Shown piece after piece: positions 511-39,600 of a DNA stretch of 64,000 nt. Position 1 is the stretch's first letter; each line of letters starts with the position of its first letter. The notes beneath the pieces were generated by a model. It was not told the DNA's origin. It did no database searches and saw nothing but the letters and a program-made list of their open reading frames with translations. The translations under genes were made by a program, and so were the position numbers. Source of the DNA: Malania oleifera (lineage: Eukaryota; Streptophyta; Magnoliopsida; Santalales; Ximeniaceae); assembly GCF_029873635.1 (NCBI RefSeq), contig NC_080423.1:99944991-100008990 (forward strand), written 5' to 3'.

Positions 511-668
511 GACTTCGTCAACGAACGCGACAAAGGTGCACTTCGTCGACGAGATGATACCGAGAGGGCGTTTTGGGCGATTCTGAATTTCGTCAACGAG
601 GGGGAGAGTTCGTCGAAGAATTGCCTTATTGACCTCATTGACAAGGTGATGTGGCTCGTCGACGAAGG
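511..668. repeat. GTCGAC palindrome cluster in the promoter of LTR copy A
   Basis: Degenerate copies of TTCGTCGACGAA lie about 20-60 bp apart. The best are at 541-552 and 655-666. The cluster ends about 10 bp before the TATA box. The same arrangement occurs in LTR copies B, C and K. Confidence 0.75.
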
Positions 669-1431
669 CCAGTGTATAAATAGGCTTAAACCTCATTTTT
701 TATCCAAAAATTGAACAAAAATTCCTCTCTCTCTCTCCTCACTTTGTCCCTCCTTCCTTCTCTCTAAGATCTCAGGCTAAATTCTCGCCAATTCGACAAT
801 CTGAAGCCACCACGACGCTCCTGGTAAAGTTCTTTGCAAACCTACTGGAGTGGATCGTCGGTGGAACTACTTTGGAATTCATCCCTGGTTTAAGGTATGA
901 CTTTTTATTCAAAATTTGGTCTTCCCATAGTTATAGGAAATGTTATTCATGGAAAAATACTAAAGTTTAGTTTTGAGAGTTGTTGTTTTCAGGGTGTAGA
1001 ACGGGGAACCTTGCGGGGGTGCAGGATGAGTATAATTTAGGGGGTTTCTTTTCAGTAATCTGGTAAGGGAATAAACTAAACTAGTTCTTTTCCATGCAAA
1101 TTATTATTTTTTATCAGTAAATTAATTTTCAGGAAAACATGTATTATATTTGTATATTATTGAGAAAATACATATTTGAAAAAATATTGCTATTGTGTTG
1201 AAATATATGTATTAATATGAAATTCCAGAAAATGTGATTTTAGAATAGAATGTATGGTTATATACAGCATTGTGTGGCATGAATACTATTTTATGTGGAA
1301 AATATTATGATATGACAATTTTATGAATAAAGTATATTTTTTAAGGATTATGAAATAATGCTATACATTATAATTTTAAAATACATGATAAATGAATTAT
1401 TTATTCGAAATGATATGTATGAATTATTCGG

Positions 1432-1590
1432 CACAAGGCCATGATTGATAGCCGACGCAAGGCCGTGTATTATGTATGATATTGGTGCAAGGCCGTATTT
1501 ATGAAATGTTCGGCGCAGGGTTGCAGATATGTAAGAAATCGGTGTAGGGCCGCAGCTATGTAAGAAATCGGCACAAAGCCATATGTATGT
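1432..1590. repeat. Minisatellite-like array with CGGC...GCCG core in LTR A
   Basis: About five units of 25-40 bp each contain a version of CGGCGCAAGGCCGTAT (for example near 1431, 1453, 1484, 1511 and 1539), separated by AT-rich spacers. Each unit can form a small stem between its GGC and GCC halves. Confidence 0.65.
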
Positions 1591-4396
1591 ATTTATGTAA
1601 CTACAAAAAATGCTATCAATCTTATTATGTTAAACAAGATATTATCATGTATTATATGTTATCAGAACCTGGATGTTAGCTCAGTTTAGTTATAGGAGCA
1701 CAGTATCCTAGCTATACAGATCAGATATTATGTTCAGACTTGTGTTAACCGCCCTTGCAAGTAGAGGGGGTGGGAGATGGATAGACGATGTGGCTTTCAG
1801 TGTAGAGTTGTAGACGTCTACCTGACAGTTTGGACCAGGGTGTGGCGGGCCCATCGTACTTACAGACATTTTTTACTCGGCAATGGTCGGCCAGCCATTG
1901 TCGGGGTCCTGCCTTCGGGCTGCACAACCCGTCATGGGGGGTAATACATGACATCAGCTAACTATACATCCTGGGTAAATTATAGTATTATCAGTTATAT
2001 CCGACATTTCATGATCAGTATGAATTATTAGAAATTATGAAAGTATATGATTATTCAGTATGTTATGATGAATGTTTTCCAGCATATGAAATGTATTGTA
2101 TATGTATTATAGCATTTAAATATTCATGTTGACACACAGCTGTATTTAGTTTATTTTCCCTTATTGAGAAGTGTCTCACCCCCGAGCTTAAATAATTTTT
2201 AGGAAACCCAAAAGACCGATGGATCGAGGCCGCCGTTGAGTTAGTTGTGCTACCCTGCTAGGAGGGTAAGTTTGAACTAGGATCAAGAGATTTTGATGTG
2301 GGATCCTAAAGATATTTTTGTATTTTTGGGAGATTGTATGTAAACACAGTGTTTTGGATTATAGTTAACTCTTGTGTTATGTATTTTATGGTTTTGAGAA
2401 TGTGATTTATATTTATTGCTGCTTAGGTTTCCGTTGTGAATGTCAGATTGTCCCTATTACCCATGGGTTCGGGTTGACTTTATTATTATATATGTTTTAT
2501 TATGTGATAAGAGAAGCAGGTCGTTACAACTGTTTTTTAAATTTTTGTTTCCATATTCATTTTACTCTTTGCTTTCCCTAAAATAAGTTTTGACTTTTGA
2601 AAAGTATAATTTGGGGTTTCTCAAAACATGGTCTCTAAGTCAATTGATTTCCTAATAAGCTTCAAATCCAAACAAATTATCATTTTGAATTAAGTACTTA
2701 CATAGACTCTATTAAGACATAAAAACATTCTAAAAATTAGAGTCTTCAAGCTTGTTCATTATTGAGTCATTTTTGTTTTTAAACTTCAAATCTTTAAGCT
2801 TTTATTCTATCACATTATTTGAGCTTTCATATTCCTTTCACTTTGAAATCTTGCAGTGAGCTTCAAATACCTATTACCTGAAGATTATTACTCACAACAA
2901 AAACATGTTAAATAACCTTTTATTTGTTATCATCAAAATAAGATTGGTAAGCCATGTTAGGCCAATAGGTTACACGTGTCAAACTCACTTGGAATCCCCG
3001 AGTTCCCACAACACCTCCGTTGACTCGCACGAGTCAACCAGGTACCACCCACCTTCAACCTAACCCTGACTCAAAACCCTAACTAGATCTAGATCACAAA
3101 AACACCCAAAACAACACCCAGAATCACCATCAACCAGACTCATCATAGATCAGAACAACAACATCCACAAATCATGCATGCTCACACCATACTTCAAAGA
3201 TTAAAAGAATAGAAAAAGGAAAAAAAAAACAACAACAACGACAATCAAGATAAGCAAAGAAGAAACTTATCTTTTCAAACTCTTCTGAATATGGGATCTC
3301 CTCGAGGTATACCTGGATCCTCCAATTCATGTCACCCTCTGGATGCTCACAGCTCAATCATGATTTCTGGAGGCCTCAAGGGAGAGTTCTTGTCATGACC
3401 TGCTCATTTTCACATTTTTTTTTTTATAATAATATCAACATCACACATCACACATTCCAGCTCAGCATGTCACAAACCACCTGGACCTGTGGGTACCAGG
3501 GATACATCAGAACATACAGCAGAAGCCTAAACAGCAGAAAATATAAAATCATATACATTTCATCATAATGTGCATAACACATACCAGAGTATTACAAACA
3601 CCATCTCTTAGTATATACATGCCAAAAATAATTGTAGGGACAATTCCCACAAAAATTTAACTGTCCCAACCCAGACTTACCCTTCTAACAAGGGCAGATA
3701 ATCAACACTAGGTCAGCGGGGCTTTTCTCGCTCTCCTATCAGGGGCTCCTGAAAAGTTATGAAATTTAGGGGTAAGACACCTCTCAATAAGGGAAATAAA
3801 CTAATACCAGTGTGTGGCAACATGAGTATTCAGTGTTCTACATATACCATACATAACATTTTCAATACTATTTATCAAATCTGGGAAATCATGCATATAT
3901 CATCAAAACATGGCAGAACATACTGCATTTTCATAATCATATTTCAATCTCATATGATAATAATAACATAAAACAATCTTGGTAGGTTAGTCGGCAGTTG
4001 TCATGTATTACCCCCACATGACTGGGTTGTGTGGCCCGAAGGTGGGACCTGGTAATGGTTGGCCGACCACTGCCAAGTCAATAGTCTAGTCTGTAGGTTC
4101 GATGGGTCTACCCAGACTGGTCCGTACACCAGGAGCGATAACAGCACACTTCTTGAAAATAACCACATCGACCATCCAATCTCACACCACTCCGTACAGC
4201 GGCGTTAACACAGATATCATGATGACAAAGACCATGGACACATAGCAACGGTACCGTGCAAGTGCTAGCCTAGACCAAGCCAACCAAGTTCTGATATTAT
4301 ATACATGTACTAAAATTGTGATACATAGATATCTCATATCATTTAATTTCACAACAATCATATCATTTTACATATATACGTGTATCATGAAAATCA

Positions 4397-4680
4397 TCGG
4401 CCCGTACGCCAGTATTACACATTTTATCATAACTCGGCCCATACGCTGGCAAATTATATCCACATAGCACGGCCCATACGCCGGCAAACATATCATAGCA
4501 CAGCCCGTACACTGGCAAATCACATCATAGCACAGCCCGTACGCCGACAAACACATCATAGCCCAGCCTGTACGCTAGCAAATATATCATAGCACGGCCC
4601 GTACGCCGGCAAATATATCAAAATCACGATCCATACGCTGGAAAAAATATATATATAAAAATCACGGCCCATATGCCGAT
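4397..4680. repeat. Tandem array of about 35-bp units (CGGCCCGTACGCCGGC) in LTR B
   Basis: Eight or so units run from about 4397 to 4680. Each has the core CGGCCCRTACGCYGGCAA followed by an AT-rich spacer such as ATATATCATAGCA. The core is a hyphenated dyad (GGC...GCC around GTAC). The array occupies the place in this LTR where other copies have unrelated arrays of similar design. Confidence 0.85.
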
Positions 4681-5410
4681 TTTCCATCTCACAATCACAT
4701 TTCTAAGAAAAGAGTATCTCACAACCATTACTACTCATGCCACATTAAACAAGTTTTCCACGTATTCAACATATCATCATTTTCAACAGGGTTTTCTCAA
4801 ATATAAATCATATATATAAACATATGTATTTTCCTAAAAATGAGTGCTATAAATATATACATACAATTTTCAAAAAGAACTAGCTTAGTTTACACCCTTA
4901 CCTGATTCTTGAACAGCCCCTAAGAAACTCTTCCCTGCACCCGCAGGGTTTCCGACTCAATACCCTGAAAATGAAATTCACCAGAACTAAAGTTTAGTAT
5001 TTTTGTACGTACAACATTTTCTATAACTATCACTAAGTCAAATTAGGCTTAAAAGCCTTACCTCAACTCAGGGATGATTCCCAACGTTTCCAATCAACAT
5101 CCCTGGAAACTAAAACTTTCAGTATTAAACTTTAATATTTTAACGCGTACAACACTTCTCTCAACTGTCACAAATCCAAAAATTGAGTATAAAACCTTAC
5201 CTTGGATTTGGGATGGTTTCCTTCTTGCTTTCACCAATGATCCGCTCCAGCAGATTCGGAGAGAACTCCGCCAGGAGCGTCGTGGTGACTTCGGATGGTC
5301 GATCTGACGTAAAAATAGCCCAAAAATGAAGAGAGGGAGAGAGAGAGAGAGGAAACTTAGCTTCTTTAAGAAGCTTAAAAAATCTGGATTTCCACATTTA
5401 TATAATAGAA

Positions 5411-5480
5411 AAATTCGTCGACGAAACCCTGTGTTCATCGACAAAATTCTTAAAGCCTTCGTCGACGAAGTCGACGGCCT
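5411..5480. repeat. GTCGAC palindrome cluster in the promoter of LTR copy B
   Basis: Perfect TTCGTCGACGAA copies lie at about 5414-5425 and 5459-5470, with a decayed unit between them and a further GTCGAC just after. On the minus strand the cluster lies immediately upstream of the TATA box at about 5396-5406. Confidence 0.8.
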
Positions 5481-5989
5481 CCTTCTGTTTCCGGTTTCCA
5501 TTTCCCTCTCTTTATTATTTAAATACCACTCTAAATTCGGGTCGTTACAGTTCTATTCAAGCTACGTTCACAGAGTAGTGAGTTCAAGTGAGAAAATGAA
5601 GGGTTGGTGTTTCTAGAAGAGCTAGGTTGAATGAGGGTAAGAGAGACTTACAGAGAGGATAGATCTTGGGTCTTCGAAGAACAAAGAGTGAAGGGATTTG
5701 AAATGAAAGAGAGAAAGAGAGAGTTCTAGAAGGTCTCAGAAGAACTCAGGGAGTGAGGAAGAAAGCTGCATGTTAGGGTTTTGGTTCGAGAAAAGAGAAG
5801 GGGAACTGAGAAAGAATGAGGGACTGAGAGAGGCTAAGAAAGTTTTAGAGTAAGGAAACCCTAGGGTTTCGGGAGTGAACCTGAGAGAAAGGAGAACGAG
5901 AGGAAGGGGAAGGGTTGCTGCGAATGGGGAGTGTGAAAAGAAACAAAACAGAAAAATTTTAGTTTAAATATGTTCCATTTCGGCATTGT

Positions 5990-7830: not shown

Positions 7831-7870
<40 letters not shown>

Positions 7871-7873
7871 TAT
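7831..7873. repeat. (TTA)n microsatellite
   Basis: About 13-14 uninterrupted ATT/TTA triplets directly follow the end of the Tat/Ogre-like LTR. Confidence 0.95.
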
Positions 7874-8324: not shown

Positions 8325-8548
8325 TGTTGTAATTGGTGTGATCCCAAACGGGGGGTGAATTGAGTTTTAAAAATATTAGGCTAAATTAAACATTTACGCT
8401 AATTCACCACATATCATATCTCATTTTAATTATGGTTGTGTATGTAAAACTGAATAAGCAATATGTAGTAACTCGAACTAAGAAAATAAGAAATAAATAA
8501 AAGAAAAGGGAAAGGGGAAGAAAAAAGGGAAATTTGGTTTGGCACAAG

Positions 8549-8680
8549 ACCAAACCATCAACAATTTCAGGGAGTCTCAGAAAAACCATCAACGATTTTC
8601 CTACAGGACAAACTAGCGAGAGCATTACACTGACAAACAGGTTTGGTAAGTGGCCAAACCGTCAACGGTTTCCTGCAGGG
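8549..8680. repeat. Palindrome cluster AAACCGT-CA-ACGGTTT in the promoter of LTR E
   Basis: Three units (about 8549-8572, 8581-8607 and 8653-8679) share AAACCRTCAACRRTTT followed by CCTRCAGG. The last is a dyad with perfect 7-bp arms around CA. The cluster ends about 10 bp before a TATA-like box. Confidence 0.75.
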
Positions 8681-8725
8681 GCAGAGTCTATAAGTTAAGT
8701 TCTTATATTATTTTTTCATTCCATA

Positions 8726-8729
<4 letters not shown>

Positions 8730-8784
<55 letters not shown>
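8730..8784. repeat. (CT)n microsatellite
   Basis: About 27 CT dinucleotides lie just downstream of the TATA-like box of LTR E, in the expected leader region. Confidence 0.95.
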
Positions 8785-9299: not shown

Positions 9300-9440
9300 T
9301 GATATGACGACTATATGCCAAGATGTGATATGACGACTATATGCCGAGATGTGATACGACAACTATACGCCGAGATGTGATACGATGGCTATATACCGAG
9401 GTATGATATGACGGCTAGATGCCGAGTTTTGATATATCAG
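9300..9440. repeat. Tandem array of about 26-bp units in LTR E
   Basis: Five to six units have the form GATATGACGACTATATGCCG plus AGATGT. The design matches the arrays of LTRs A and B but the sequence differs. Each unit holds a short CG...CG dyad. Confidence 0.8.
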
Positions 9441-9825: not shown

Positions 9826-12028
9826 TATAACGCCCTAGAAAATTAATATGCATGGAAGCGTAAAAAAAATTAATTAAAAATTATTTAAATAATAATAATA
9901 CTAAATAATTGATCAATTAAATTATATAATATAATATATTAATATAATATATAATATTATATTATAAAGTTAGTAACTTCCTAAGGAAGTAATACGAATT
10001 CAATTCTTTAGGAAGGACCAGCACTCCGTCTCTCCCTCATCTTCTTTATCCCACTCTCCTTAATTTTTTCTCTAACATTTGACTGATCGGAAATCCGAAG
10101 ATACCCTTAGGTTCCTACCTTTGTCACCGACATTCCTACTGAGCGGATTTGTCGTGGGAGGTAAGCATATCTCATAGGGTAAGGCCAATTTTCACACTTA
10201 CCTCAATTTTTCTTAAATCTTAAGTCCAATTAACGAACGACAATTGCCAGGAGATTCGTGGGGAGATTCTCTACAATATAATTGGAGCGAGTTTTCGAAT
10301 TGGAGCTCTGGGGCATCAACTCTAAATCGGGGATAAGTTTAACAATTTAGGCTTTGTTAGGCTATTTAGGGTATTCAAAACTTAGAGGAATTTTAGAAAA
10401 AGTTACTTTGAGAATTGTGACAAATAATATGGTGAAGTTTGAATTTCAGGGTTTCAGGGGTTTTGAACGCCGTGGGGCGTAGGTCGAGGTTGTGTTGGGC
10501 TTTTTAGGAATCAGGTGAGGGAATTAATAGGTCGAGGTTGTGTTGGGCTTTTTAGGAATCAGGTGAGGGAATTAAGTTAAGTCAGAATTTTATTAAATAT
10601 GATTTGGTTAAATTGTTATATATTTATATATTTATTTATTTATTTTTGTATTTAAGAATTTAAAGGCTATTTCGAAAACCAACCGTTCAAAATGGATTTT
10701 ACAAATTTAGGATATATGGTATGGTATTTTAAATAAAAATGATCGGTGGAAAGTTTGGTTGTTTGTATGATTATATTTAAATGTTGAAATTGTGTGATCG
10801 ATGATTATTTGGTAGGATTTATTGTTTAACTTGATTTGAGACTGTTTTCGAAATACTGGAATTATTTGTAAAATACTGGAATTGTTGTGAAAAATATTAG
10901 AACTTCTTGTGAAAAATGCAGGATTTTGAAATAAAGGTCGGTGGCTGGGTATTGTTTGATTGGCCAAGGGCCAGGATTATTATTTGACGACCGAGGGCCG
11001 TGGTTTTGTTTAAACGACTATGAGTCGAATTGTATTTTTGGCCGGGGACTAGGTTTTTTGAATAACAGAAAATATATGTGAATTGATATTTTAAATGGTA
11101 ATTTCAATCATCTAAATTGCATGATATGTTTTAGGAACCCTAGGGACCAATGTATTGTGAGCATGGTACCATTGCTAGTTAGACCATGTGCACCCACACT
11201 ATTTTAGATAGAAGTGTAGGGGGTCCAGCCGACTGCCTGCGTGAGGTTGAAGTAAGGGCGTTGGACCTACAGTTTTGCTGTGGATGCCTGCAGATGTGTT
11301 TGCAGAGGATGTTGTTTTTTTGACTTTGTTTGGGCTGATCACCCAAGCTTAGTCCAGCCTTCGAGCCGCACAACCTGTGCCATGGGGGAGGTAAATGGCG
11401 TGTTTGTCACAGGGATTGTCTTATATGCATATAAGTTAATTTATGTGAATATGGATAATTAATAAGATAACTTCGAGGGTTTACTGAGAAATGTGAGTGC
11501 CCTAATAGCAGTAATGGTATTAGAACAGAGGGAAGCTACTTGTATGGTCGGATAATCTTCCCTATCATCGGCTAATTGTGTGTGTGAGTGTAAAATAAGA
11601 ATGATTTCATAAATGTCTTTATCTACTTAGTGAACTGGTTATTTTCTGTATACTAAATGCATGTTGGCCACACATTGACATTAATTTAGTCTTTCTCTTA
11701 CTAAGTTGTGCCTCACCCCTACTTTACAAACTATCTTTTCAGGAAATCCTGAAGATCGGATCTAGCAAACTAGAGGAGCCGGGCTCGTGGTGTAAATTTA
11801 TGTAGGTAATGTGTATAGATAGAGATTTTATTTTTGTTTAGTTTTATGAGATGTAATTATGATAAAATAGATTTATTTGTATATAAAGGTAGTATAGAAC
11901 TCTGGTAATGGATTTTTAGAGATTGTATCTTTTAGTTTCGCTGCATTTTATATGATGAGTTTGGTATTATGTACACAGACGTAACTAAAGTAGCACCCCG
12001 GGCCCACGTGGCGGGTCGAGGCGTTACA
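9826..12028 (+). repeat. 5' LTR of element F
   Basis: It pairs with 15520-17757 over its whole length. It starts TATAACGCC, ends GAGGCGTTACA, and is followed two bases later by the primer-binding site. It holds a TATA-like box in the AT-rich part near 9960, a GGCCAAGGGCC-type array (about 10940-11060), the conserved CTTCGAGCCGCACAACC block (about 11358-11376) and a GTGCCTCACCCC block (about 11706-11718). A tandem duplication of 48 bp (10481-10528 and about 10529-10574) is present here and absent from the 3' LTR, so it arose after insertion. Confidence 0.9.
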
Positions 12029-15519: not shown

Positions 15520-17757
15520 TGTAACGCCCAAAAAAATTAATATGCATGGAAGTGTAAAAAAAAAAATTTAATTAAAAAATATTTAAAAAATAATAATAAA
15601 AATAAATAATTAATCAATTAAATTAAAATTAAAAATTAATTAAACAAATATTATTAATTAAATAATAAAAATTATTAATTAAATAATATAATATAATATA
15701 TTAATATAATATATAATATTATATTATAAAGTTAGTAACTTCCTGAGGAAATCTTCCTCAGGAATGAATTCAATTCTTCAGGGAGGACCAACACTCTATC
15801 TCTCCCTCATCTCCTCTCTCCCACTCTCCTCAATTTCTTCTCCAACATTTAGTTGATTGAAAATTCGAAGATACCATTGGGTTCCTACCTCTGCCACCAA
15901 CATTCCTACTGGAGCGGATTTGTCGTGGGAGCAGCGTGGGCATATCTCATGGGGTAAGGCCAATTTTCACACTTACCTCAATCTTTCTTAAATCTTTAGC
16001 CCAATTAACGAATGGAATTTGTTAGGAGATTTGTGGGGAGATTCTCTACAATCTAGTTGGAGTGAGTTTACGAATTGGAGCTCCGAGGCATCAACTCTAA
16101 ATGGCTGGTAAGTTTAACAATTTAGATTTTATTAGACTATTTAGGGTATTCAGAACTTAGGGGAATTTTAGAGAAAGTTACTCTAGGCATTGTGATGAAT
16201 AATATGGTGAAATTTGAATTTCAGGGTCAGGGGTTCTGAAAGCCATGGGGCGTAGGTCGGGGTTGTGTCGGGTTTTTCAGGAATCAAATCAGGTAAGGAA
16301 ATTAAGTTAAGTCAAAATTTTATTATATATGAACTGATTAAATTGTTATATCTTTATTTATTTATTTGTGTATTTAAGAATTTAAAGTTATTTCAAAAAC
16401 CAACCGTTCAAAATGGATTTTACAAACTTAGGATATATGGTATGGTATTTTGAATAAAAACGAACGATGGAAAGTTTGGTTGTTTACATGGTTATGTTTA
16501 AATGTTGAAATTGTGTGGCCGATGATTATTTGGTAGGATTTATTGTTTAACTAGATTTGAGACTGTTTGCAAAATACTAGAATTGTTTGTAAAATACTAG
16601 AATTGTTGTGAAAAATATTGGAACTGCTTGTGAAAAATGCAGGATTTTGAAATAAAGGCCAGTGGCCGGGTATTTTTTGATTGGCCAAGGGCCAAGATTA
16701 TTATTTGACGGCGGAGGGCCATGGTTTTGTTTAAACGGCTGTGAGCCGGATTGTAATTGTGGTCGGGGGCTAGGTTTTTGGAATAATAGGAAATATATGT
16801 GAATTAATATTTTAAATGGTGATTTCTATTATTTAAATTGCATGATATGCTTTAGGAACCCTGGGGACCAGTGTATTGTGAGTACGGTACCGTTGCTAGG
16901 TAGACCATGTGCACCCACACTATTCTGGATAGAAGTGTAGAGCGTCCCGCCAATTGCCTATGTGAGATTGAAGTAAGGGCGTCAGACCTGCAGCTTTACT
17001 GTGGATGCCTGCAGATGCGTTTGTAGAGGATGTTACTTTTTTGACTTTGTTGGGCTAATCACCCAAGCTTAGTCCAGCCTTCGGGCCAACTCGTGCCATG
17101 GGGGAAGTAAATGGTATGTTTGTCACAGTGATTATCTTATATGCATATCAATTAATTTACGTGAATACGTATAATTAATAAGATAACTTCAAGGGCTTAC
17201 TAAGAAATATGAGTGCCCTAATAGTAGTAATGATATTAGAATAGAGGGAAGCTACTTGTATGGGCGGGTAATCTTCCCTATCCTCAGCTAATTGTCTGTG
17301 TGAGTGAAATAAGAATGATTTCATAAATGTGTTTATATACTTCGTGAACTGGTTATTTTTTGTACACTAAATGCATATGTTGGCCACACACTGACATTAA
17401 CTTAGTCTTTTTCTTACTAAGTTGTGTCTCACCTCTACTTTACAAACTATCTTTTCAGGAAATCCTAGAGATCGGGTCTAGTAGGCTAGAGGAGTCGAGC
17501 TAATGGTGTAAATTTATGTAGGTAGTGTGTATAGATAGAAGTTTTATTTTTGTTTAGTTTTATGGGATGTAATTATGAGAAAATGGATTTATTTGTATAT
17601 AAAGGTAGTATAGAACTCTGGTAAAGGATTTTTGGAGATTGTATCTTTAGATTGTATCTTTTATTTTCGCTGCATTTTATATGATGAGTTTGGTATCATG
17701 TACATAGACGTCACTAAAGTAACACCCTAGGCCCACATGGCGAGTCGAGGCATTACA
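15520..17757 (+). repeat. 3' LTR of element F
   Basis: It starts TGTAACGCCC and ends GGCATTACA. It aligns collinearly with 9826-12028, including the conserved blocks (about 17077-17103 and 17415-17436). Confidence 0.9.
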
Positions 17758-18705: not shown

Positions 18706-21045
18706 TGTAACGCCATAAAAATAATTATTATAGGAGGATGTAGTGGATCCAAAAAATAATAATAATAAAATAAAATAAAAAAAATAAATTAATTAAATAA
18801 TTAAATAATTAATTATAGTAATTAAAATAAATAATTAATTAACTAAATAAATCACTAATATTAATTAAATATTATAATAATAATAATGATATTAATATTA
18901 ATATTATTATATATATATCCAAAGCTACCAGGAAGCATCTAAAGGAATTTGAAATTCAGGGAGAGAAGTCGCAGCCCCCCCTTTCCGAGTCTCTCTCTCC
19001 CACTTCTTTCAATTTCTCGAATGATTTTCGCCCGATCGAAAATCAGAAAATACTGCTGGACTCCATTCTCTGTCACCGACATTTCTACTAAAGCCGATTT
19101 GTCATAGGAGTGGCGTAGACATATCTCATGGGGTAAGCTCAATTCTTACTTTTACCTCAATTTCTCGTAAATCTTAAGCCCAATTAACGATTGGACACCA
19201 CCACAAGAATCTAGAGATGATTCTCCACAAGTCTAGCGGAGCGGATTTCTCGTGGCGTCATCATAGGCATAACCCCAAAATTAGGTCAAGGGGGTTATTA
19301 AGGTGCTAATTATTATTTAATTATCGTAGATTTAGAAATGTTAAATATTGGGCATTTTGAGGTTGAATTAGGGTCATTGGGCTCGAGTAAGCGTCGTCGG
19401 TGTAATTTCGGGACTTTAAGGGCATAATTCAGAAAAACCAAAGTAATTTGATTATTTTGGAGTTTAACAATTTATTTAGGTTATTGGGAGCCTAGGAAAT
19501 GTTTTATGGAAATTATGTTAGAATTCTATTGAATGTTCCGAGGAAATGGAAATTGTAGATTTTGTGCTGGAAATGCCATAGGCTCAGGATTGAACTGTGT
19601 GGGCATCCTAGTAAGTCAGGTAAGAGGATAAATAAAATCAGAAATTTTCATGAAATTATTCATTATTTTGCAACCTTTAATTAAAGGAAAATATGTATAT
19701 TGTATAATTATGTTTGAGAATTACTGTTACGAACAAGGATATGATTTAAGTATGTTTATCAGGAAATATGATTTTTAGCAGATTTTACGTACAGAACGTT
19801 ACTCATTTCTGTGTGGCATGAGTTTATATTCTTGTAATTACGTATATTAGATTAATATGCTTTTCCCAGAACAAGCACGATATGATAATTTTCAAGGAAA
19901 TTGTAAAATATTACAGGAACCATGATTTTATGAATATTATGTTAAACAGTATAGAAAAATCATGTTTAGTATATTATATTATGCTAGGGCATATGCCGTG
20001 ATTCATATTGGCACAGATGCCATATTGATGTATTATATTACAACATTCATGAAATATTATTATGTTAGATATTATTGTGAAACATGAAACAATAATGTTC
20101 AGTATATGAAACATATTATATGCTAATAGAACTCGGATGGTATGGTATAGTTCAGTTTTTAGAAGCACATTACTGTAACTATATGTCAACATTATGATAG
20201 TGCAACCACACGACCAGAGTGTGGGAAGTGGTAGTCAATGTGGCTTCAGTGTAGAGTTGTGATGTGCCCCTGGCAGTTTGGGACCAGGTGGGGCAGGCCC
20301 ATCGTACTTACAGACTCATGTTTTGATCTATTGTGGTTGGCCAGCCATTGCTAAGTCTCGTCTTCAGGCCGCACAATCCATTCATGTGGGGGTAAGACAT
20401 GACATCAGCTAACTATCCATCATGGGTGTTATTTCAGTATAGTACAGTTATATAAGATGTTTTCCATGCACAGTATGCAGTATGCTATATTATGAATTAA
20501 CAAATCATGTTTTACTCAGTTTAGTACAGTCAGACTTTTTCAGTTATGTTTTATCTATTATTTATATGTACAACACGAAAATACTCATGTTGCCACACAC
20601 TAATACTAGTTTATTTCTCTTTTTGAGAAGTGTCTCACCCCAACATTAAAACATTTCAGGAAATTCAAGTAGAGGAGCTGATAGAGTTCCGTGACGGTAA
20701 AGTTGGACTATGCTACCCTGTTGGAAGGGTGAGTTGTTGTGCTAGGGTCAGATTTACTTTGGGATTGGCCTTGGGATACATTTCAATCTTTTGGTGGATG
20801 ATTGTATATATATAATTAGCGGATTTAATAGAACTCTAGTATTGTGATCGATTGGATGATTGTATGTTAATTACGTTTCTTATAGCTTAGGTGTCAAAGT
20901 TGTTTGACAAGTATGTCCCCAGTACGCATGGGTCAAGGTGGACCATGTTTATATCAGTATAACAGGGAAACAAGGTAATTATGAATGTTGTTATGTTTTC
21001 ATGTGAAAGAAAAAATATATATGGTAAAATAGGCAGGTCCTTACA
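18706..21045 (+). mobile_element. Gypsy-like solo LTR (D), inserted in G
   Basis: This 2.34 kb LTR starts TGTAACGCC and ends GCAGGTCCTTACA. It is bounded by the perfect target-site duplication CCAGC (18701-18705 and 21046-21050). Conserved LTR blocks occur near 20364-20400 (GGCCGCACAATCC) and 20620-20640 (GAGAAGTGTCTCACCCC). Near 19980-20030 there is a short GGGCATATGCCGTG-type dyad repeat, reduced to two or three units. No palindrome cluster of the GTCGAC kind is seen near its AT-rich promoter region. It is a solo LTR. Confidence 0.87.
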
Positions 21046-21728: not shown

Positions 21729-21927
21729 GGTCTCGTTGACGAATACAAGAGATTCGTCGACGAACACAAAAGATTCGTCGACGAGAATACATGAGGGTCT
21801 CGTTGACGAGAAGATTTCGAAAAAGGGGTTTTAGCAATCTGAAATTTGTTGACGAGGGCTTCATGTTCGTCGACGAACTTTCTTCATGGACTTGTCGACG
21901 AGATGACGTGTCTCGTCGATGAATCTG
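21729..21927. repeat. GTCGAC palindrome cluster in the promoter of LTR copy C
   Basis: Eight or so units of TCGTYGACGA occur, with clean ones near 21754, 21774, 21867 and 21892. They are spaced 20-50 bp apart and end a few bases before the TATA box. Confidence 0.85.
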
Positions 21928-22604
21928 GGGTTATAAATAGCTAAAACTCGGATTTTCTGTAGAAAAACTTGCGCAAGAAGATCCTCTCTCTCTCTAAAAC
22001 GTCCCTCTCCCCTTCTCTCTTAGATTCCGACTCCGTTTCTCGCCGGTTCGATGATCTGAGGCCACTATGACACTCCTAGGAAAGTTCTCTTTAAATTTGT
22101 CAGAGTAGATCGTTGGTGGGGCTGACTTGAACTCCATCCCAAAATCAGGGTGAGACTTTTATTTAGTATTTGCCTACCCTATAGTTATAGAAAATGTAGA
22201 AGTTAGAAAAATACTAAAATTTTGTTCTGGGAAATGTTGTTTTCAGGGTATTGAGCGGGGAACCCTACGGGTGTAGGACCAGATGTAGTAGGGGACTTTT
22301 CCATAATTAAGTAAGGGAAATATGCTATGCTAAGAGTTTTAGCAAAATTATCAGAAATTTTATGTATATATATATACCAGTTTATTATCTAGTTTTACAA
22401 CATATGAGTTTTAATATTTGTGTGGCCTGAGTAGATATTTACCTGATATAGAATTTATATAGTTTTTCCCAGCATATCATGATTCATAGTATATACAGAT
22501 ATATACAGATATAGACAGATATTTATCAGACAAGTATTGCAGATTTTTTTTCAGATCAGTATATTACAGTAATTACAGAATGTCATGTTTTCTAAAACCA
22601 TAAC

Positions 22605-24554
22605 TGTTGATTAAGGTGTAATCCCAAGAGGTGGGGGTGAATTGGATATAAAAAAAAATTTAAGCCACTTAATTTTCTTTCACACACTTCTTATAAGTTT
22701 ACCAACTACTTCTAGTTGCTCAATTACGTGTGAGAGTGGCAATCCTATCTATGTATGCAATGTACTTGATTTTAAATATAATGCGGAAAATAAAAAGTAA
22801 AAGGAAGAGAGAAGACAAACGCAATTTTACGAGGTTCAGCCAACCTGGCCTACATCCTCGCCTTGAGCAACCACTCAATGATTCACTAAAAACCCTGCTC
22901 CTTAAAGTGGAATGGAGCTTCCCGTACAATCCGCTGCTTACAAGAGGTATAGCTTCCTCCTACTTTGCTGCTTACAAGAGATACAACTCTCTCCTCACAC
23001 ACCGGTTCACACACTGAACCGTGTATACAATAGAATCTGTAAAATAACACTCAAAACAATGCTTCTAACAATAGCTCATGAGTACAATTCAAATTCCTAA
23101 CACATTAACATATGATATAACTTGAAGCTCGTGAATGTATGAAAACGATACAATCGTTTTATGAATGATTATGCATCAACACACAGATCCCGATTTATTC
23201 AAAATTCCCAAGTTATAATATATTTGAGATGCCTCGGAGTTAACTAGGGTTCTTGGTTCACTTTTGTAAAGATGCAAAAGTATGTTTGAAGTGAACTCGT
23301 TAACAAAATCTTTGTATTGAATACAAACTTAATCAAAATCACAAATCTTTATTCCATGTATTCTATCACAAACTGAGAATATTAATTTTCAGAAAATATC
23401 CCTCAATTTAGAAATATAGTTATAAGTACCAAGGATATTTAATCAAGCTTTAATATATCAAAATATAAATCCTTTGAAGAACACCCACTTGAATCAAAAA
23501 TCAATCAACCAAGTTAAATAAGTTTTCTTAAGTAATGATCTTCTCAAAAATATATTTTATATGAATTGATACACTCAAGATAAAAACTTTTCAATACTTA
23601 GTCAAGAATAATCAATGAGATGAGAATTTCTTAAGAATATAAACTTGAAAGATCAAACCTCAATACTAGATTGAAGTACAGTAGAGTAAGCAAGTTCCCT
23701 TTGAGAATCTGAGTTGATTTGCTCAAGCTTGAAGATTAGAGATTGAGAAGTAAGCAATCGTATAGCACTAATAGTAGATTTTCAATGTTCTCTCAACAAG
23801 ATGCGTTCTTTTCTTTCTTGTGTGTCTCATCTTCATTCTAGGGTTGAGACATTTAATATATATAGTGTATGACCCTTAGGATTGATCTTAGATGTTGGAT
23901 CAATCAGATAGCTTGCGTGTTTTTTTTAATAAAAATCTGATTTTTTAGGCTTTCCTGCAAGTTCAAGCAACCGAACTGGGGTTTAAGCTCCTGAAGTGAC
24001 AACTTCAGGCACCTGAGGTTCTAGGGTAAGGCGACCGAAGTACCTCTGCCAGGTTCTGTCTTTCCCATTTAATTCTTCAGGCTACTGAAGTAAAGTTCAG
24101 GCGACCGAACTCCCCTTTTTCTCAAATTTTCTTTTCTAAGTTAAAAATATGCTTTGATTCTCTTCTTGGGTCTTTCATAAAACATATTTTTCAATGATTT
24201 GAAAACATTTCTAAGTTCATACAGGTTCCCTAATGATATACATGAAATGCATGAAACCTAAAATCACTCTAAGTTATATTTGAGCTTCAAAATAAATCAT
24301 ATGACAATGTAAATACATAAGCTCTAAATACCCATTCCCAAGAGATTCTTGAACTTTGCCGCTTGTATCTTGATTCTTGTACTCTTTGAGTTCCATGGTA
24401 CTTGCCAAGATGTGTAAGCTTTACTTGAAGGATTCCATGACTCATTATCTTTCCGTGCATGCTTAATATAGTTCCTGTTCACAAACTTGATGCACATATC
24501 AAATACCAAGTGATTTGTCATTATCAAAACAGGATTGGACTCGTAGAGTCAATA
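22605..24554 (-). mobile_element. Ty1/copia-type solo LTR (H), inserted in C
   Basis: This 1.95 kb LTR has plus-strand left end TGTTGATTAAGGTGTAATCC and right end near GAGTCAATA. It is bounded by the perfect target-site duplication ATAAC (22600-22604 and 24555-24559). It belongs to the family of G and of the piece at 1-2973: the CAAGAGGTGGGGGTGAATT end, a TTTTACGAGGTTCAGCCAA block near 22826, and a GTCATTATCAAAACAGGATT start. On the minus strand a run of TTCAGGCGACCGAA-like dyads (23961-24115) precedes a TATA-like box (23855-23864). It is a solo LTR. Confidence 0.82.
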
Positions 24555-25994
24555 ATAACACTTAGATTATACAGATTATACAGTTAGATATACAGTTATA
24601 GCAATCAGATGCTACAATTATGTTATATAGATGTTACTGTATTTCCAGTACAGAACTATAGTGTTATGGTTATTTTGGAAACATGATGAAAACAATAGGG
24701 TAATTATAGTAGTAGCATATATGTATACATTATCAGATCCCTGATGAAATATTACAGACAGATACAACTTACAGAGTATGGTTCCGTTGTTAATTACAGA
24801 TCAGAGTGCAACCACATATCTTAGATAGTATGTAGGTACCGTCAACTGCGCCCGGAGTGATTGCAATCTCCCCAATTCTTTGGGTTGAGGGAGCTTAGTT
24901 TGATGAGGTAGCAGTCTAGTTTCGTGCTTAGGAGAGGATGTAGTTTGGCTGGACTGAGGAAGGGTAGAGTACAGTGACTTACCTGGTAGGCCAACTAGAG
25001 TTAAGTCCCGCTTACGGGCCGCACAACCCTGTTATGAGGGGTTAAATCATGACATACAAATTTTCAGGGAAAAATCACAGTTATGTATATGTATACAAAT
25101 TTACAGCATTTTTATAGTATGATATTAGAAGTATGAAAAAGTAGAAAATTTAGATGATATAGTTACATTTTAAACTGCGATAAATGTAAGATATACTTTT
25201 TACTGATTTACCAGCTTATACAGTTTCAAATGTTATTATAATAGCTAAACAACTTGGTTGCCACACACTAGTAATAACATATTTCCACAAACTGAGTATC
25301 CTCTCATCTCATTACTCTAATATTTTTCAGGTGAACCAGCTAGGTGAGTATACCAGGCTCGTAGATAGAGTGATTTCTTGGTTGCTCTGTTTATAAGGTA
25401 AGTGTGTTCAGAGGGTTGTGTTTTTGAATAGATGATACTGGTGAGAGATGTAAAAATGTATCTATGGTTTGGGAAATACTGAATTCTGGTATTGTATATA
25501 TATATATATATATATATAGATGTATGATTTTATCTTTTCTGCTGCATAAGTGTGTCTATTATGTACGGGAATATCTTAGTGCCCATTTGAGGCCTGAGAA
25601 GCTATAGCAGGGGTATCAAAGTAATTTATTTTATGTGGAAAAAAATGTGTAATTTTTGGGTCGTTACAGTATATGCATGTGAATACAAAAATAAATGCCC
25701 AAAATAAATATACTCTCTTCTAAAATGATTTTATATAAATGAATGGAAAGAGGGTTTGAGAGTTTTGTTTAAAAATTTTTGCCCCAAACAAGAGATTTTT
25801 GCAATAAAAATGATTTAGGGAAACTTCGATGAACAAAGGATTAGAGAGAAAATTATAACTAATTAAAGTTACTAATCTGGAGTAATGAGGGGGTATTTAT
25901 AGTTTTTCAAAAAATATGACCATTTGGGGACACGCTTGGTATTTTTCCATTTGTTTAATTAAAAATTAATCATGTTTACCATTGGTAATTACCG

Positions 25995-26410
25995 AACCCG
26001 AGATGCTCAGTCGACCGGTCTAAGACGTTAGTTGGTTGAATACTCACAACAATCTGAAGGGGTTCGGTTGGCCGAGCAAAGGGTTGGTTGGCTGACTTTG
26101 GGCAATTTTCCTTTCCATTGTGATTTCGGTCGCTCGTCCTAAGGTTCGATCTGCTGGTCTTTGAAGGTCAGTCGACCGAGGCATATTTTGAACTAGAAGT
26201 TCGGTCGCCCGGGGACGGTAGGAAACCCAAATTTCATGATTCGATCGATCGTGGAAGGTATGTTCATTTTAGGTTGGTCGCCCGAGGCATAGTCAACATT
26301 TTGACTCCTGACCTACAGTGTGTTCAGTCGACCGTGGTGATTTACGTTAATGAGTTGATCGACCGAGGCTATTTAATTAACCCAAAAAATCCAACGTCGG
26401 TCGACCGACA
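25995..26410. repeat. CGGTCGACCG-type palindrome cluster in copia-type LTR G
   Basis: At least a dozen versions of GGTCGACCGA or TCGGTCGCCCGAGG occur. Clear ones lie near 26008, 26168, 26326 and 26396, at 20-60 bp spacing. On the minus strand (the LTR's own direction) the cluster lies about 100 bp upstream of the TATA box at 25894-25902. Confidence 0.8.
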
Positions 26411-30536: not shown

Positions 30537-30611
30537 GGCGAGGCTTTGGGAATTTGAGGTTTTGAAGGGTTTGGAGGTTAAGTTGTTAGGGTTTTGAAAG
30601 GGCTGTGAAAG

Positions 30612-33600
30612 ATGAGTGACAATTTGATGGAGAAAGTGAGCGCTTTTGGTGAGCGCTTGAAGATTGGAGGGGCCGAGGTGGGGCGAAAGATGAGTGCAGG
30701 CATGACCTCTATGAGCTTCAAAATGAAGGAGCTCTTCCAAGGGCCGAACCAAGTTGACAAGCTTGTTGACGATGCCACTGCAGAGACCCTCGACGAGCCT
30801 GATTGGGCCTTGAACCTTGAACTGTGTGACATGATCAACACTGACAAGATCAGTAGTATTGAACTACTCCGAGGTATCAAGAGGCGGATCATGATTAAGA
30901 ACAACCCCAGGGTGCAGTATTTGGCTTTGGTGTTGCTTGAAACTGTTGTCAAGAATTGTGAAAAAGCATTCTCAGAGGTGGCTGCTGAGCGGGTGCTTGA
31001 TGAGATGGTGAAGCTGATTGATGATCCGCAGACTGTGGTCAATAATCGCAACAAGGCTTTGGTCTTAATTGAAGCATGGGGCGAGTCTGCTAATGAACTT
31101 CGGTATTTGCCTGTTTATGAAGAAACATACAAGGTATATTGATAACCAAATTGGGCCTTATTTTTTGCTTTTTGAAAAGAATTTGTTCCCTTGTTGGTCT
31201 GCAGACTCTGCACTGTGGTGGATTCTGATGATCAGAAAAGCTTGAAAAGTATGAATTTTGAGCTGCTCAAATTGTAAGATAATTAACCCCCCACCCCCCC
31301 CCCCCCCCCAAAAAAAAGAAAAATATTAATAAATATACTGTCAACTAAGGAACAAGTTACTACCCTTTTCTTTGTATGAAGAAGGTTCTTTTGGAATGGT
31401 ATAAGTTTGAATTTGTTTGTGTGAAAGTATAATTTTCTGTGCATTCGTTTGATATTTAAACCAATGAGGAAAAAAATAATGAAAAAGTTCAACATTTTTC
31501 TATCTTAGGCTTTTTTTTCCCTGGAACAAATACTGAAGACTTGATAATTTTCTCTTTTTCCAGTGATTGAGATAAATGGATTATGAATCCTTAAAACAGA
31601 TTTTCTTTTTTCCCAGAGTCTTTTATGAACTATTTCTTATCAAATTGATCCTTAGAAAGTCAATGTGCACAACCCAAATGCATGTTGTGGGCTTAATATA
31701 GGAAAGAAAACTATGTGTTTTTTGGGCAAGAATATTTGGAGATTTTGTATGTTAAATTTCTCTAACATGTCCCTGTTTTTCAGAGTTTAAAGTCCAGGGG
31801 TGTTCGGTTCCCTGGTCGCGATAATGAGAGTCTGGCACCTATATTTACCCCTCCTCGTTCAATTACGGCTTCAGAACTGAATGTTAGTCTTGCTCAGGAA
31901 ACGCATCGTGATATTCCCATACAAAGCTTTTCAGCCGAGCAAACAAAGGAAGCATTTGATGTGGCACGAAACAGCGTTGAACTTCTTACCACAGTTATAT
32001 CTTCTTCACCCCAACAAGATGTTCTGAAGGTATTTTTGTTCCTTTCATCGATCACCATTTTTCTATTTGTGTTTATGTGGATGTCCTGATTCTAGTTTGA
32101 TATTAAATTTGTGATCATCTAAGACCTACACATGACTGATCACCTGGTCGCTTTGTTTTGAATTTCTTGTATCTAAAAATACATTATACCTTCCTTATTT
32201 AGACCTTTTGTTGGGTCCAGCTTTGGCCAGAGAAATATTCCAAAATATTAACTGACGAAACCATTTTGGATCATCATGTTGTTTTGATTAATTGGAAAAT
32301 GGATTGCCTGCTTCGACCATGTGAGTGGCTTGAGAAGCATGAGCCGCATTCTTGTTACGTAGGATCTTGTGATGTGAAAAATAGGATCAGCACACAGCAG
32401 TGTCCTGTACTGATCAATTAATAGTTTGAATTTTTAAAATGGGGCAAATTATATCTTAAGTCCTTGAAATTTCATTGCATTGCATTTAATCCCATGAAGT
32501 TTTAGTTGTAATTGTTTGATCCTTGAAAAATTTCAATTCTGATGAGATCCTTGAACATAGACTTGAACTAGCCTAAATATGAAACTCCAAGGATCAGATT
32601 GTTACAATTAAAGCTTCATGAAGTGAAGTGCAATTTGATGAAACTTAGGACATGTTGTGTAATTTACCAATAATATATCATAGTTATTTATTTACGTTTG
32701 TGCGGTGCCTAACTCTAATCAGATTGATGAACTCCCTTTGCATTTTATATAGTAGTTGTAATGTACAACAACAACAACAACTACAACAACAAGCCTTAAG
32801 TCCCACTAAGTGAGATTGGCTACATGAATTCTTTTATACAAATTCACATGATCAAGGACATTTTTCTCATCTATCTAAAGAGCTATTAAATCCTTCCTCT
32901 CTATCTCATTCCATGTTAATTTAGGTCTACGCCCACCCCCTCTAATTATAGTAACAATAACTGGCTCATTCTTTCTCGCGTGTGCATTGCTTGGCTTGTG
33001 TTTTAAATGCTCAAACCATCTAGCCTACCCTTCCCTTAGCTTATCTTGTACCGATGCTATGCCTAACTTATTGTGATTATGATTGTTTCTTAATTTATCC
33101 TTTAATGTTATACCACTCATTCAACTTAACATTTACATTTTGACAACTTTTACTTTTTGGATATGTTGTTTCCTAGTTGCCTAACATTTTGATCCATAAA
33201 GTACGGTTGGTCTCATAGCCGTCTTATAAAACTTTTCTTTTAATTTTAAGGGTATTCTATGATTTCCCAACATTCTCAAAGCACCCCATTTTACCCAACC
33301 TGTTTTAACTATATGTATTACATCATCTTCAATTTCTCCTTTTTCTTGCATAAAAGATCCAAGGTATGGAAATCTACTGGTGCTATTAATTTCTTGATTA
33401 TCAAGTTTAATTTTATCTCCAATATATCTCCTTATGCAGTTGAAATTACACTTCATATATTCTTTCTTATTTCTACTTATCCTAAAACCTCTAGATTTTA
33501 AAGTTGTTCTGCATAGTTCTAACTTAGATTCTACTCCATTCCTACTTTCATCAATCAAGACAATATCATCCGCAAGCAACATACACCATGGGATCTCGCT

Positions 33601-36600: not shown

Positions 36601-39600
36601 CAAATTGCGTTGAGGAAGGTGTTAAGACTATGTGTGCTTGATTTACATTGTTAGCTTTTGTCCTATTAGCTTAAGCTTGTCCAAATCCATTTTGTACACC
36701 TCTCCATGTATGAGATAGGTTGCATGTGAGGGCAATTATTTGATGGCTGGAAATACATTGTGGGGCCTAACTCCTAATGGCTTAAGCTTTTGGGACTGGC
36801 AATAAACTAACATGTTGTCAAAGATTGGTTGTTAGGTCACAGTTTAAACTCTTCACACACCACTTCTAAAGATGAGGGGTTTTGGCATCATTCTTGTTTT
36901 CCATTTCTCTGTTGTACAATGAGGAATTGGAGTATGGCAATGAATTTGTTTATGTTGCTATTTTCGCAAAAAATTAGAAAAGAAAACAGGATATATAAAT
37001 TTCAATTATTTTGGCAACGTAGCCACAATACTTTAGTGTTCAGAATTAACTTTAATGAATCATTCACTTTATGCATAATGTTGTTCTTAAAAAATTAAAA
37101 TAAAATGACAATGTTGCTATAAAAAAATAAAAAATAAAATAACCATGTGAATTTTAAATACAGTTTTTGGAAATATTGACGTGGTTTTTGGCTTTTAGTT
37201 TGTGTTTCTAATTTTTAACTTTCATTTGTTTGTAATTTTTGACATTGATACCAAATTGCCCCTAAACTTGTGTTAGATTTGGCCCTTTGTGTTGATTTTT
37301 GGACTTCCGCTTCCACTTGCGTGTGCTGGTGGGCCTAGCATGTGTGTCACTCCCCGAACCCAACAATGGGACCCAGGGTTTGATGTAGTAACCTATGTCC
37401 TTGTATCATACAAAACACAAATGATACGATAGTGAATGAGGGTCTGACCCCGTGGGGTTCCCGTACACCCTATGCACATATATGTAGCGGAAAAGTTCAT
37501 TCTATACATACACAGTACCATACGAGAGTCTATACCAATAGAGTTTAAGCTCCATAATACAAAACATAACCTAGGGTGCCCGCAATACCCAAAACGACAA
37601 CCCTGTTACAGTCCAAGTACTTACACTAGTACCCTACGCAGTAAACCGACCATCACGCTCCCAACACAAGGATGCTAGTTCTGGTTTCTCAAAGGATCTA
37701 AAAAGATGTATGTATGATAGGGGTGAGACACCTCTCAGTAAGGAAGAATCAGGTTATATCGGTTTGTGACATATGAGTGTTATCATGACATATAAGATAT
37801 GCACAGTTCAGTTCCAGAATTTCCACAAAACAGTACTCAACACACACAAGATCAAGTAACCCGGTGTCGTCACACCCTTCGGCGTGAAGCCGACTCTCAT
37901 TACACGGCATCCCCGGCACATGGCGTAGCCCCAGGCTCCCATGACATTGTACTGGTACATCTGGTGGATCCACACCCTTCGGTGATCAACCGGTAAGAGA
38001 CGATATTTCACGTCCTCGGATATAGAGCCGGACACTCTTGCCACTAGCAGGCGATATTTCATGTCCTCAGATATAGAGCCGGACACTCTTTCACAACTTC
38101 GGAACACACGTTCCTATATCTCATTTCAGCAAATCACAACTTATGCATATTCATATAACAGTACATTCCACACTTATTTGGTAATCTCAAAAATCATGCT
38201 TTTCAAAATACATTTTAAACAAGTCAAGGCACGACCATCTCCATAACACAATATATAACACAATATATCTACGGTTTTCCAACGAAACCAGAGATGCAAC
38301 CCAATGCCCTCTTTTTCCCAAAACTATAATATAAAAACCCTATAATTTTCACCCATTAGATTTCCCCAAATAAGTAGTCAAAACACATACAAGACCGTGA
38401 ACCACAATTCTATCGGATCCGATTTCGAAAATAACCGATATAAACAGAATCCCCTTACCTTTCCCCGAAAATCCAAACCCGAACTCTATGACTCTTAAAC
38501 AGCGAATCGAGTTTCCAAAACCTATAAATCATAGTACAATACATACTTACAATTCCATTCTCTACATATCTTCCAAAACGGAAATGAAAATCGAGCCTTA
38601 CCTCGATTTTGGGTCAAAACCCGGAAATCCTCGAAACGAAGATCCGTTCCACAAATCAAGAAGAGAATCCTTCTCTGATCCTCGTAGTAACGTCAGATGG
38701 TCGATTCTAACGACGAACGACGAAGAAATCTAGAGAGAGAGAAAGAGTGTGGCTTCGAGTTCTCAGAGAGAGAGAGAGAAATTTGGATATCTTAGCTTCT
38801 AAGCAACTCAACTGATATTTATAGCACCTTTGACTTGGCCAACCTCGTCGACGAGGCGGCGTCTTCGTCGACAAGTCAACAAAGGGAGTTTGTCGAAGTA
38901 GCTGTGGCCTCGTTGACGAGCCCGAGATTTCCGATTTTCCCGAAACCTCTCGGCTTCTCCTCGTCGACGAGCCTCTGCATTTCATTGCCGAGCAACAGAA
39001 GGGCCTTCGTCGACGAGGCCTGCTCAATTTACTGTTTTACCCCTTTCTTATTTATTTATTCCACATATCACGGGTCGGGTTCTTACAATGTGAGCAGGTG
39101 ATCTGGCACGTGAGGGAAGTGAGCATTGGCGTGCTCGTTATATATGGTTAGCCTGTTTCCATTGGGTTAAGCTTGTTGGACTAGCAACAATCCCCTTGTG
39201 TGTTGTGGGGAGAATGGGGGATACAAACTTTTTTTGCTTTGACACATTTGAAATAAACTACATGATTTAAATTGGTGTTTGTTGTTTTGCACTCATTCAG
39301 GCTTGCCTTTCTAGTATTCCTCTATATTTCTTGTCAATCTTTAGATTGCCTGTGAGGATAGCCAGTACAATAGTATTGAGAAGATCATGTGAGATTTTCT
39401 CTTGTTCGGGGTGCGGGAGAATAAATATTATTTGGTTAGTTTAGAGGTTGTCTGTAGGTCTAAAAAGGAGGGGTGTTTGGTCCTGGAAAGCTGTTATCTG
39501 AGAACATTGTTTTAATGGGTAAATGGTTTGTGGCAATTTCCCTTAGAGGAGTCTTCCCTTTGGCATAAAATTATTCAGAGTAAATTTGGCTTGCAGGATA

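Follow-up and report, generated by a model that had tools for sequence, protein, structure and literature searches.

Palindrome arrays ahead of the TATA box in Ty3 and Sirevirus long terminal repeats of Malania oleifera: candidate binding sites for a dimeric host factor

Introduction

Sireviruses, a genus of Copia retrotransposons, carry palindromic repeated-motif (RM) boxes in high copy number, which are clustered in the long terminal repeats (LTRs) upstream of a conserved TATA box. The passages of PMC2829016 that deal with these boxes (Bousios et al. 2010) call them Sirevirus-specific, give their core as CGG-CCG with one exception, Tnd-1, state that they form CpG islands, and list CGGTCGACCG in Table 3 as the box of Vitis. 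In maize, an excess of small RNAs has been found on the palindrome clusters of Sireviruses (Bousios et al. 2016, as summarised in passages of PMC10760457 and PMC5311732). The present study concerns a stretch of 64,000 nucleotides from Malania oleifera (contig NC_080423.1, positions 99,944,991 to 100,008,990, forward strand; 'the window'), in which comparable arrays are found in LTRs designated A, B, C, E, G, H and K. We report that arrays of this kind occur in the LTRs of two superfamilies, Ty3 and Copia (Sirevirus).

For Ty3 elements, the main text of PMC4029996 (Cruz et al. 2014) reports that a variable CpG island is present at the 5' end of Del (Tekay-type) LTRs in some groups of monocots and missing in eudicots; the stem 'palindrom' is absent from that main text. 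Repeated promoter boxes are also known from the U3 region of Tnt1, where the BII boxes are said to bind defence-induced host factors (PMC3316501, in part). The accessible sections of PMC6911290, on palindromes at insertion sites, and of PMC3601003, on LTR models, do not describe arrays such as those found here, and those of PMC12786077 concern other host-factor boxes. No report of Ty3 LTR arrays of this kind surfaced in our literature searches, in which subscription papers were mostly not covered. A previous sequence-only reading of the window had stated that no description of the arrangement was known. This has to be corrected for the Copia half, since LTR G, with its unit CGGTCGACCG, corresponds to what is described in the cited part of PMC2829016.

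Results

Dyad arrays in the window

Units of type TTCGTCGACGAA were confirmed in A, B, C and K, units of type CGGTCGACCG in G, and ACCGTCAACGGT in E, all of them where the sequence-only reading had placed them. To obtain chance levels, each interval was subjected to 300 dinucleotide shuffles, counting dyads with at least 40% GC. For perfect 10-bp dyads, the observed value was reached by 5 (A), 2 (B), 0 (C), 1 (K) and 10 (G) of the 300 shuffles, and such dyads were lacking in E, H and a further piece at positions 190-420. When 12-bp dyads with one mismatched pair were allowed, the corresponding numbers were 1 (A), 13 (B), 3 (C), 1 (K), 9 (E), 13 (G) and 101 (H), with none found in the 190-420 piece, and for perfect 8-bp dyads they were 23 (A), 13 (B), 17 (C), 5 (K), 40 (E), 4 (G) and 49 (190-420 piece), with none found in H. 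A, B, C, K and G therefore show an excess over chance, as does E with one mismatch allowed; the excess is weak in H and absent from the 190-420 piece. Accordingly, the proposal that all eight intervals contain dyad clusters stands for six of them, is doubtful for H and is not supported for the last. The density of 10-bp dyads was 7.78 per kb in the eight intervals versus 0.66 per kb elsewhere in the window. No such units were seen when the dyad scan covered further LTRs in the window, at about 9832-12028, 15522-17757 and 18711-21045. By eye, the LTR at about 15522-17757 has TTCCTGAGGAA / TTCCTCAGGAA dyads following its AT-rich part. A search of window positions 1-40000 for RNA structures gave no Rfam match.

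Position and orientation relative to the TATA box

Read in the direction of the LTR, the last unit precedes the TATA box by 8 bp in A and C and by 9 bp in B, and it precedes CTATAA by 18 bp in E and K. In G and H, the edge of the interval as previously drawn lies 92 and 96 bp from the TATA box, respectively. The claim that the cluster comes before the TATA box thus held for these seven LTRs; for the 190-420 piece, to which it had been extended, no LTR direction was established.

The same arrangement was apparent throughout the genome. TCGACGAR followed by TATAAATA within 30 bp was found 26,460 times, versus 162 times for the reversed pattern, and a TATA box facing the dyad instead was found 168 times versus 126 for its own control. 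Among 100 listed places of the 26,460, the TATA box was most commonly 14 bp away from the dyad centre (37 places), followed by distances of 35 bp (29), 24-26 bp (16), 16-17 bp (11) and other values (7), the 35-bp class representing the dyad that is one further from the TATA box. These arrays are located in U3 with a fixed orientation toward the TATA box, and this part of the original proposal, with its recurrence in two retrotransposon superfamilies, was borne out.

Some further sequences were noticed near these TATA boxes. In A-type U3s of the listed places, an GTGACGTGGC-like word recurs between the final two dyads before the TATA box (the window copy, at about 646-655, is decayed); its ACGT core is presumably bZIP/ABRE-like. 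In K-type U3s, GGTCAAAGG sits between the last dyad and the TATA box instead of this word. Tandem repeats of about 20-25 bp are seen by eye at a similar place 3' of the TATA box in LTRs A, B and E (1430-1580, 4380-4690 and 9300-9430).

Abundance in the genome

In the 1.49 Gb of genome searched, TTCGTCGACGAA was present 37,861 times, versus 67 times for the reversed word, CTCGTCGACGAG 29,470 times versus 36 for the control, and TTCGTCGACGAG 54,641 times on both strands versus 141 for the control. A grid sample was also taken, comprising 20 stretches of 10 kb each (200 kb, one stretch being half N). Here, CGTCGACG was the most over-represented 8-mer apart from simple repeats (26 versus 0.1 expected), and GGTCGACC was found 16 times versus 0.55 expected.

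LTRs were also sampled blindly with respect to dyads, the search query being only the stretch 3' of the TATA box. Units were counted loosely (one mismatch besides CpG transitions or, for G, a generous 8-base test) or strictly (CpG transitions only). All 16 A-type loci cut from 40 scored matches, the window copy (L029) included, carried units, namely 4-8 loosely and 2-7 strictly. Among the 12 G-type U3s fetched from 40 matches (L045-L056), 11 carried 5-14 units loosely and 1-6 strictly, and the truncated LTR of L052 carried none; the strict counts for G-type units in L011 and L026 were 10 and 7. Six of the eight E-type loci (from 40 matches) had 2-4 units loosely and 1-3 strictly; the other two, L071 (1 loosely, 0 strictly) and L067 (none), are both truncated. 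Each of the eight H loci (also from 40 matches) showed about eight imperfect units by eye. In the random grid sample, dyads were present upstream of 12 of the 15 A/C/K-like post-TATA matches. Outside this count were five B matches of 23-49 bp (one with a single unit), three matches to the 18711-21045 LTR family, which were without dyads, and one match to H, the unit of which was not part of the scan.

Spacing and arms of the dyads

Pairs of the A-type TCGTCGACGA core with a gap of 2-32 bp were found 20,830 times in the genome versus 0 in the control. In the 83 of these places that were listed, the cores were spaced by 19 (8 places), 20 (30), 21 (20), 24 (18), 25 (6) or 26 bp (1), such that all spacings fell within 19-21 or 24-26 bp, though 12-42 bp were possible. 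E-type core pairs numbered 83 versus 0, with spacings of 20-22, 27-31 and 40-42 bp among 50 listed, and G-type core pairs numbered 34,860 versus 6, with spacings of 19-21, 24, 32-34, 38 and 40-42 bp among 50 listed. The fetched loci gave a similar picture with small numbers. The distance recount took all 83 listed A-type places; for the spacer test and the arm and phase tests, 73 and 74 of them were used after removal of repeats by hand. The spacers proved to be diverse yet related, with a mean best-orientation identity of 0.44-0.52 versus 0.32-0.34 for shuffled spacers.

Pyrimidines occupy the position immediately outside the core in 93% of the arms for the 10-bp A core (88 units) and in 95% for the 8-bp G core (51 units). 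Of 121,972 A-type sites, 67,331 had symmetric combinations, versus 61,275 expected for independent arms, a ratio of 1.10. The arms thus vary almost independently, a pattern that fits half-sites of a dimeric protein better than hairpin pairing. Correction of quasi-palindromes by template switching was also considered; it would couple the arms and, with a coupling of only 10%, is not favoured. Several G-type Copia spacers hold a second kind of dyad, GGTCAA-N4-TTGACC, an inverted TTGAC that we take to be W-box-like.

Constraint on the dyads

Conservation was assessed in alignments of 16 A copies, 10 G copies (without L050 and L052), six E copies (without L067 and L071) and eight H copies, with dyad columns being defined by the commonest base and units lost in most copies being left uncounted. 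When CpG transitions were set aside, changes in A amounted to 3.8% in the dyads, 15.8% in the spacers and 5.5% around the TATA box. In columns outside a CpG context, the values were 4.4% for the dyads versus 17.4% for the spacers of A. The A dyads therefore underwent about four-fold fewer such changes than the spacers. For G, the corresponding values were 8.5% in dyads versus 22.7% in the surroundings, and for E 6.5% versus 11.0%. With all changes counted, the values for dyads and surroundings were 13.5% versus 18.4% in A, 18.6% versus 25.6% in G and 3.2% versus 3.0% in H. The suggestion that dyads are kept more than neighbouring bases is consequently upheld for A and G and less strongly for E, once CpG transitions are set aside, and it does not extend to H; the alignments point to constraint on the dyads of A, G and, in part, E.

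Host elements of the arrays

A, B, C, K and E had been regarded as unrelated families. This view was not sustained, because Ty3 domains lie near A-, C- and K-type LTRs and because the LTR start TGTARNRACCCGA is, by eye, common to B, K, L030 (related to A) and L065 (related to E). This start is decayed in the window copies of A and E, and no LTR start was identified for C. A Ty3-type integrase SH3 domain was detected upstream of the A-type U3 in L030, L033, L035, L037, L038 and L040 and upstream of the C-type U3 in L024 (partial), and RNase H was detected upstream of the K-type U3 in L025. One element, L010, has a dyad-bearing LTR, behind it a primer binding site (PBS) at 3675 and then RVP_2, RVT_1, RNaseH and integrase, which is the Ty3 order. 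From these predicted domains, we assign LTRs A, C and K to Ty3 elements. B looks like a member of the same lineage by the resemblance of its LTR alone, and so does E, of which L065 shares with L030 (A) an identical-looking polypurine/att stretch ahead of U3. Altogether, the five LTRs appear to form a single Ty3 lineage. At the end of pol only SH3_Tf2-1 was matched, with no Chromo match, and the frames are broken; the elements are likely Del/Tekay chromoviruses.

For G, the array and TATA box in L011 are followed by the LTR end CA and then ATTGG-TATCAGAG, a Sirevirus LTR/PBS junction, and integrase precedes reverse transcriptase, as in Copia. This junction and pol, both from the one element L011, identify G as a Sirevirus. 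H is weakly linked to Copia through a reverse-transcriptase match in L012 below the curated cut-off, and we refer to it as Copia-like.

Two loci combine these features differently. Locus L021 contains AAACCGTCGACGGTTT-type units at 1071-1205, with no TATA box seen nearby, LTR borders that were not found and Copia pol downstream; these E-type units are assigned to neither superfamily. At 1080-1690 of L001, two U3 arrays directly adjoin, one of the Copia G-type and one of the Ty3 A-type; the junction may have arisen by nested insertion, by truncation or by recombination of the two arrays.

Features of the window

The coordinates are collected in Table 1. Relatives of E, such as L065 and L072, show a GTCGAC-centred form of the decayed E units. 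In G, CGGTCGACCG with its CGG-CCG core lies at 26396-26409 and is also found in L011, L026 and others; the G array of the window is mostly decayed, with 8 units loosely and 1 strictly.

Table 1. LTR features of the window (strand refers to the direction of the LTR).
Feature	Position	Strand	Remarks
LTR A (Ty3, about 2.1 kb)	436..2528	+	TGTAATGA...GGTCGTTACA; borders by eye
U3 dyad array, LTR A	511..668	+	units of type YTCGTCGACGAR; dyad scan and shuffles
TATA box, LTR A	675..681	+	TATAAAT, 14 bp past centre of final dyad
TATA box, LTR B	5398..5404	-	TATATAA
U3 dyad array, LTR B	5414..5470	-	dyad scan and shuffles
U3 dyad array, LTR E	8549..8672	+	decayed AAACCGTCGACGGTTT copies; dyad scan and shuffles
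TATA-like box, LTR E	8688..8693	+	CTATAA
U3 dyad array, LTR C	21729..21927	+	8 units, one mismatch allowed
TATA box, LTR C	21932..21938	+	TATAAAT
TATA box, LTR H	23858..23864	-	TATATAT
Repeated imperfect dyads, LTR H (Copia-like)	23961..24115	-	about TTCRGTMGCCTGAA, by eye
TATA box, LTR G	25897..25902	-	CTATAA
U3 dyad array, LTR G (Copia, Sirevirus-type)	25995..26410	-	units YYGGTCGACCRR
TATA box, LTR K	38816..38824	-	CTATAAATA
U3 dyad array, LTR K	38840..39020	-	dyad scan and shuffles

At window position 44967, a PBS-like TGGTATCAGAGC directly follows an LTR-like end CCGTTACA, which suggests that the right half of the window holds a further element. An open stretch at 30609-31139 resembles, by eye, the beginning of a VHS/GAT-domain (TOM1-like) plant gene.

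Discussion

The arrays described here resemble the RM boxes of Sireviruses. A repeated palindromic unit upstream of the TATA box is present in A, B, C, K, E and G, and weakly in H, and the G-type unit is identical to the Vitis box. The CGG-CCG core is found in the G-type arrays, but not in the Ty3 arrays A, B, C, K and E, the cores of which are CGTCGACG and CCGTCGACGG. The expected host, with Copia pol and the CA/ATTGG junction, was seen for the G-type in one element, L011. As for the number of at least 8 units per element, 11 of the 12 sampled G-type U3s lie in a range of 5-14 under the loose count and 1-6 under the strict one. The Ty3 arrays, with their A, C and K hosts (B and E by LTR resemblance), differ in both host and core from the boxes in the cited part of PMC2829016 and, despite their resemblance, are not classed as RM boxes. 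The maize clusters of the 2016 study likewise consist of palindromes in the regulatory region of the LTR, where they are also small-RNA hotspots, but in the passages cited they belong to Copia elements and have the unit CACCGGACNNNGTCCGGTG. The Del LTRs of PMC4029996 are similar in being long LTRs of a Ty3 lineage, but its main text does not mention palindromes and its eudicot copies are without a CpG island. Taken together, the Ty3 half looks like a new form of Sirevirus-type promoter array, the Copia half having already been described. What appears to be new is that Ty3 LTRs have the same GTCGAC core between different symmetric flanks, together with the quantised spacing and the roughly four-fold dyad constraint in A. 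The Tnt1 BII boxes also lie upstream of the TATA box; their sequence is different and their copies are fewer than in the present arrays.

In the interpretation that we favour, and hold to be somewhat more probable than not, the clusters serve as U3 enhancer arrays on which a dimeric host factor would act. A host DNA-binding protein would dock on each dyad as a symmetric dimer, with each arm serving as a half-site around the GTCGAC core (GACGAR in A-type, GACGGT in E-type and GACCRR in G-type units), and the preferred distances between dyads and from dyad to TATA box may allow the bound dimers to help start transcription of the element. Protein binding, dimer state and activation are each what we infer from the arrangement of the sites. 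An AP2/ERF factor of the DREB/CBF type, for which GTCGAC and CCGAC sites would be expected, is a possible candidate for this protein. Of the roles that had been suggested for the clusters, sites for a dimeric factor fit best. A more far-reaching version, in which Ty3 and Sirevirus elements would have independently reached one host dimeric factor through different flanks around the GTCGAC core, with a grammar of dyad and TATA spacing and over 100,000 near-identical docking sites, is tentative and rather less probable than not to be correct.

Several observations weigh against the enhancer-array interpretation. Helical phasing is expected for cooperating dimers. The spacings of E agree with this (12 of 5000 random spacing sets reach the observed fit), but phasing is weaker in G (35 of 5000, with a best period of 7.5 instead of 10.5) and absent from A (2052 of 5000); as a general rule it was therefore rejected, fitting E, partly G and not A. 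The H dyads are unconstrained (2.7% versus 2.4% in eight copies), and once CpG transitions are included, E has more changes in its dyads than around them (19.6% versus 11.5%), owing to CpG decay. Three of the 15 A/C/K-like post-TATA matches in the random sample, all K-like, were without upstream dyads. The symmetric excess of 10% is small yet nonzero, and the sample of 88 units includes L001-L008, which were chosen by a symmetric word. The distances listed for A- and G-type arrays come from the first places in the genome, not from a random draw, and counts of dyads and spacings are not independent because the copies share descent. In addition, CpG-context columns of A change about equally in dyads and spacers (19.5% versus 23.3%); the units thus seem to decay in the manner of methylated DNA, and many copies are probably methylated and silent.

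This last observation bears on the role of CpG methylation, which we retain as a rival account. The array would then be a methylation target or an anti-silencing device, i.e. a switch that is closed by host methylation or held open by a methyl-sensitive factor. The three CpGs per 12 bp of A-type units, the frequent CpG-transition variants and the CpG islands formed by Sirevirus boxes (PMC2829016, in part) are in line with this. By itself, however, CpG density would demand neither dyads and their GTCGAC core nor the fixed spacing and the low rate of non-CpG changes, and the CpG columns of the dyads are not clearly protected, which makes this account very unlikely. A further live rival, although unlikely, is that the units act mainly as RNA, with self-complementary units of U3, which is transcribed in the 3' LTR, pairing in the transcript and feeding small RNAs, so that the array would above all be a recognition site for the host. 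The small-RNA excess on maize Sirevirus clusters (Bousios et al. 2016, after PMC10760457 and PMC5311732) would agree with such a role, and the folding of U3 RNA was below the mean of 60 shuffles in all nine stretches (z from -0.7 to -7.3). Any palindrome array folds, however it arose, so such z-scores are to be expected from the dyads as such; in one A stretch z was -0.7. Pairing would need no fixed distance or orientation to the TATA box and is disfavoured by the near-independence of the arms; this independence is not decisive, because a mixed T..G unit keeps a U-G pair on one strand.

It may also be asked whether an ancestral array was simply multiplied with its families by descent and tandem duplication, with little present function. 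Consecutive spacings of 46-47, 20-21 and 24-25 bp recur in 13 of the 16 A loci, the Copia spacings of about 33 and 40 bp resemble duplicated units, and the 40 scored H matches are 94-100% identical to the query, which is itself included. Inheritance of this kind does not account for the roughly four-fold lower change of A dyads relative to spacers, CpG transitions aside, or for dyads that are fixed points among divergent spacers, and inheritance within Ty3 or within Copia leaves the core that their LTRs have in common unexplained. We regard descent and duplication on their own as a live rival, but a distinctly unlikely one.

With such boxes occurring in an abundant Ty3 lineage, where they have the GTCGAC core of the Vitis box and a quantised spacing, what seemed to be a curiosity of one Copia genus would become a recurring promoter design. 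The question of what binds these boxes becomes directly testable, with a short bait and over 100,000 genomic copies. Should a host factor be found, the LTRs could dominate the binding of that factor in this genome.

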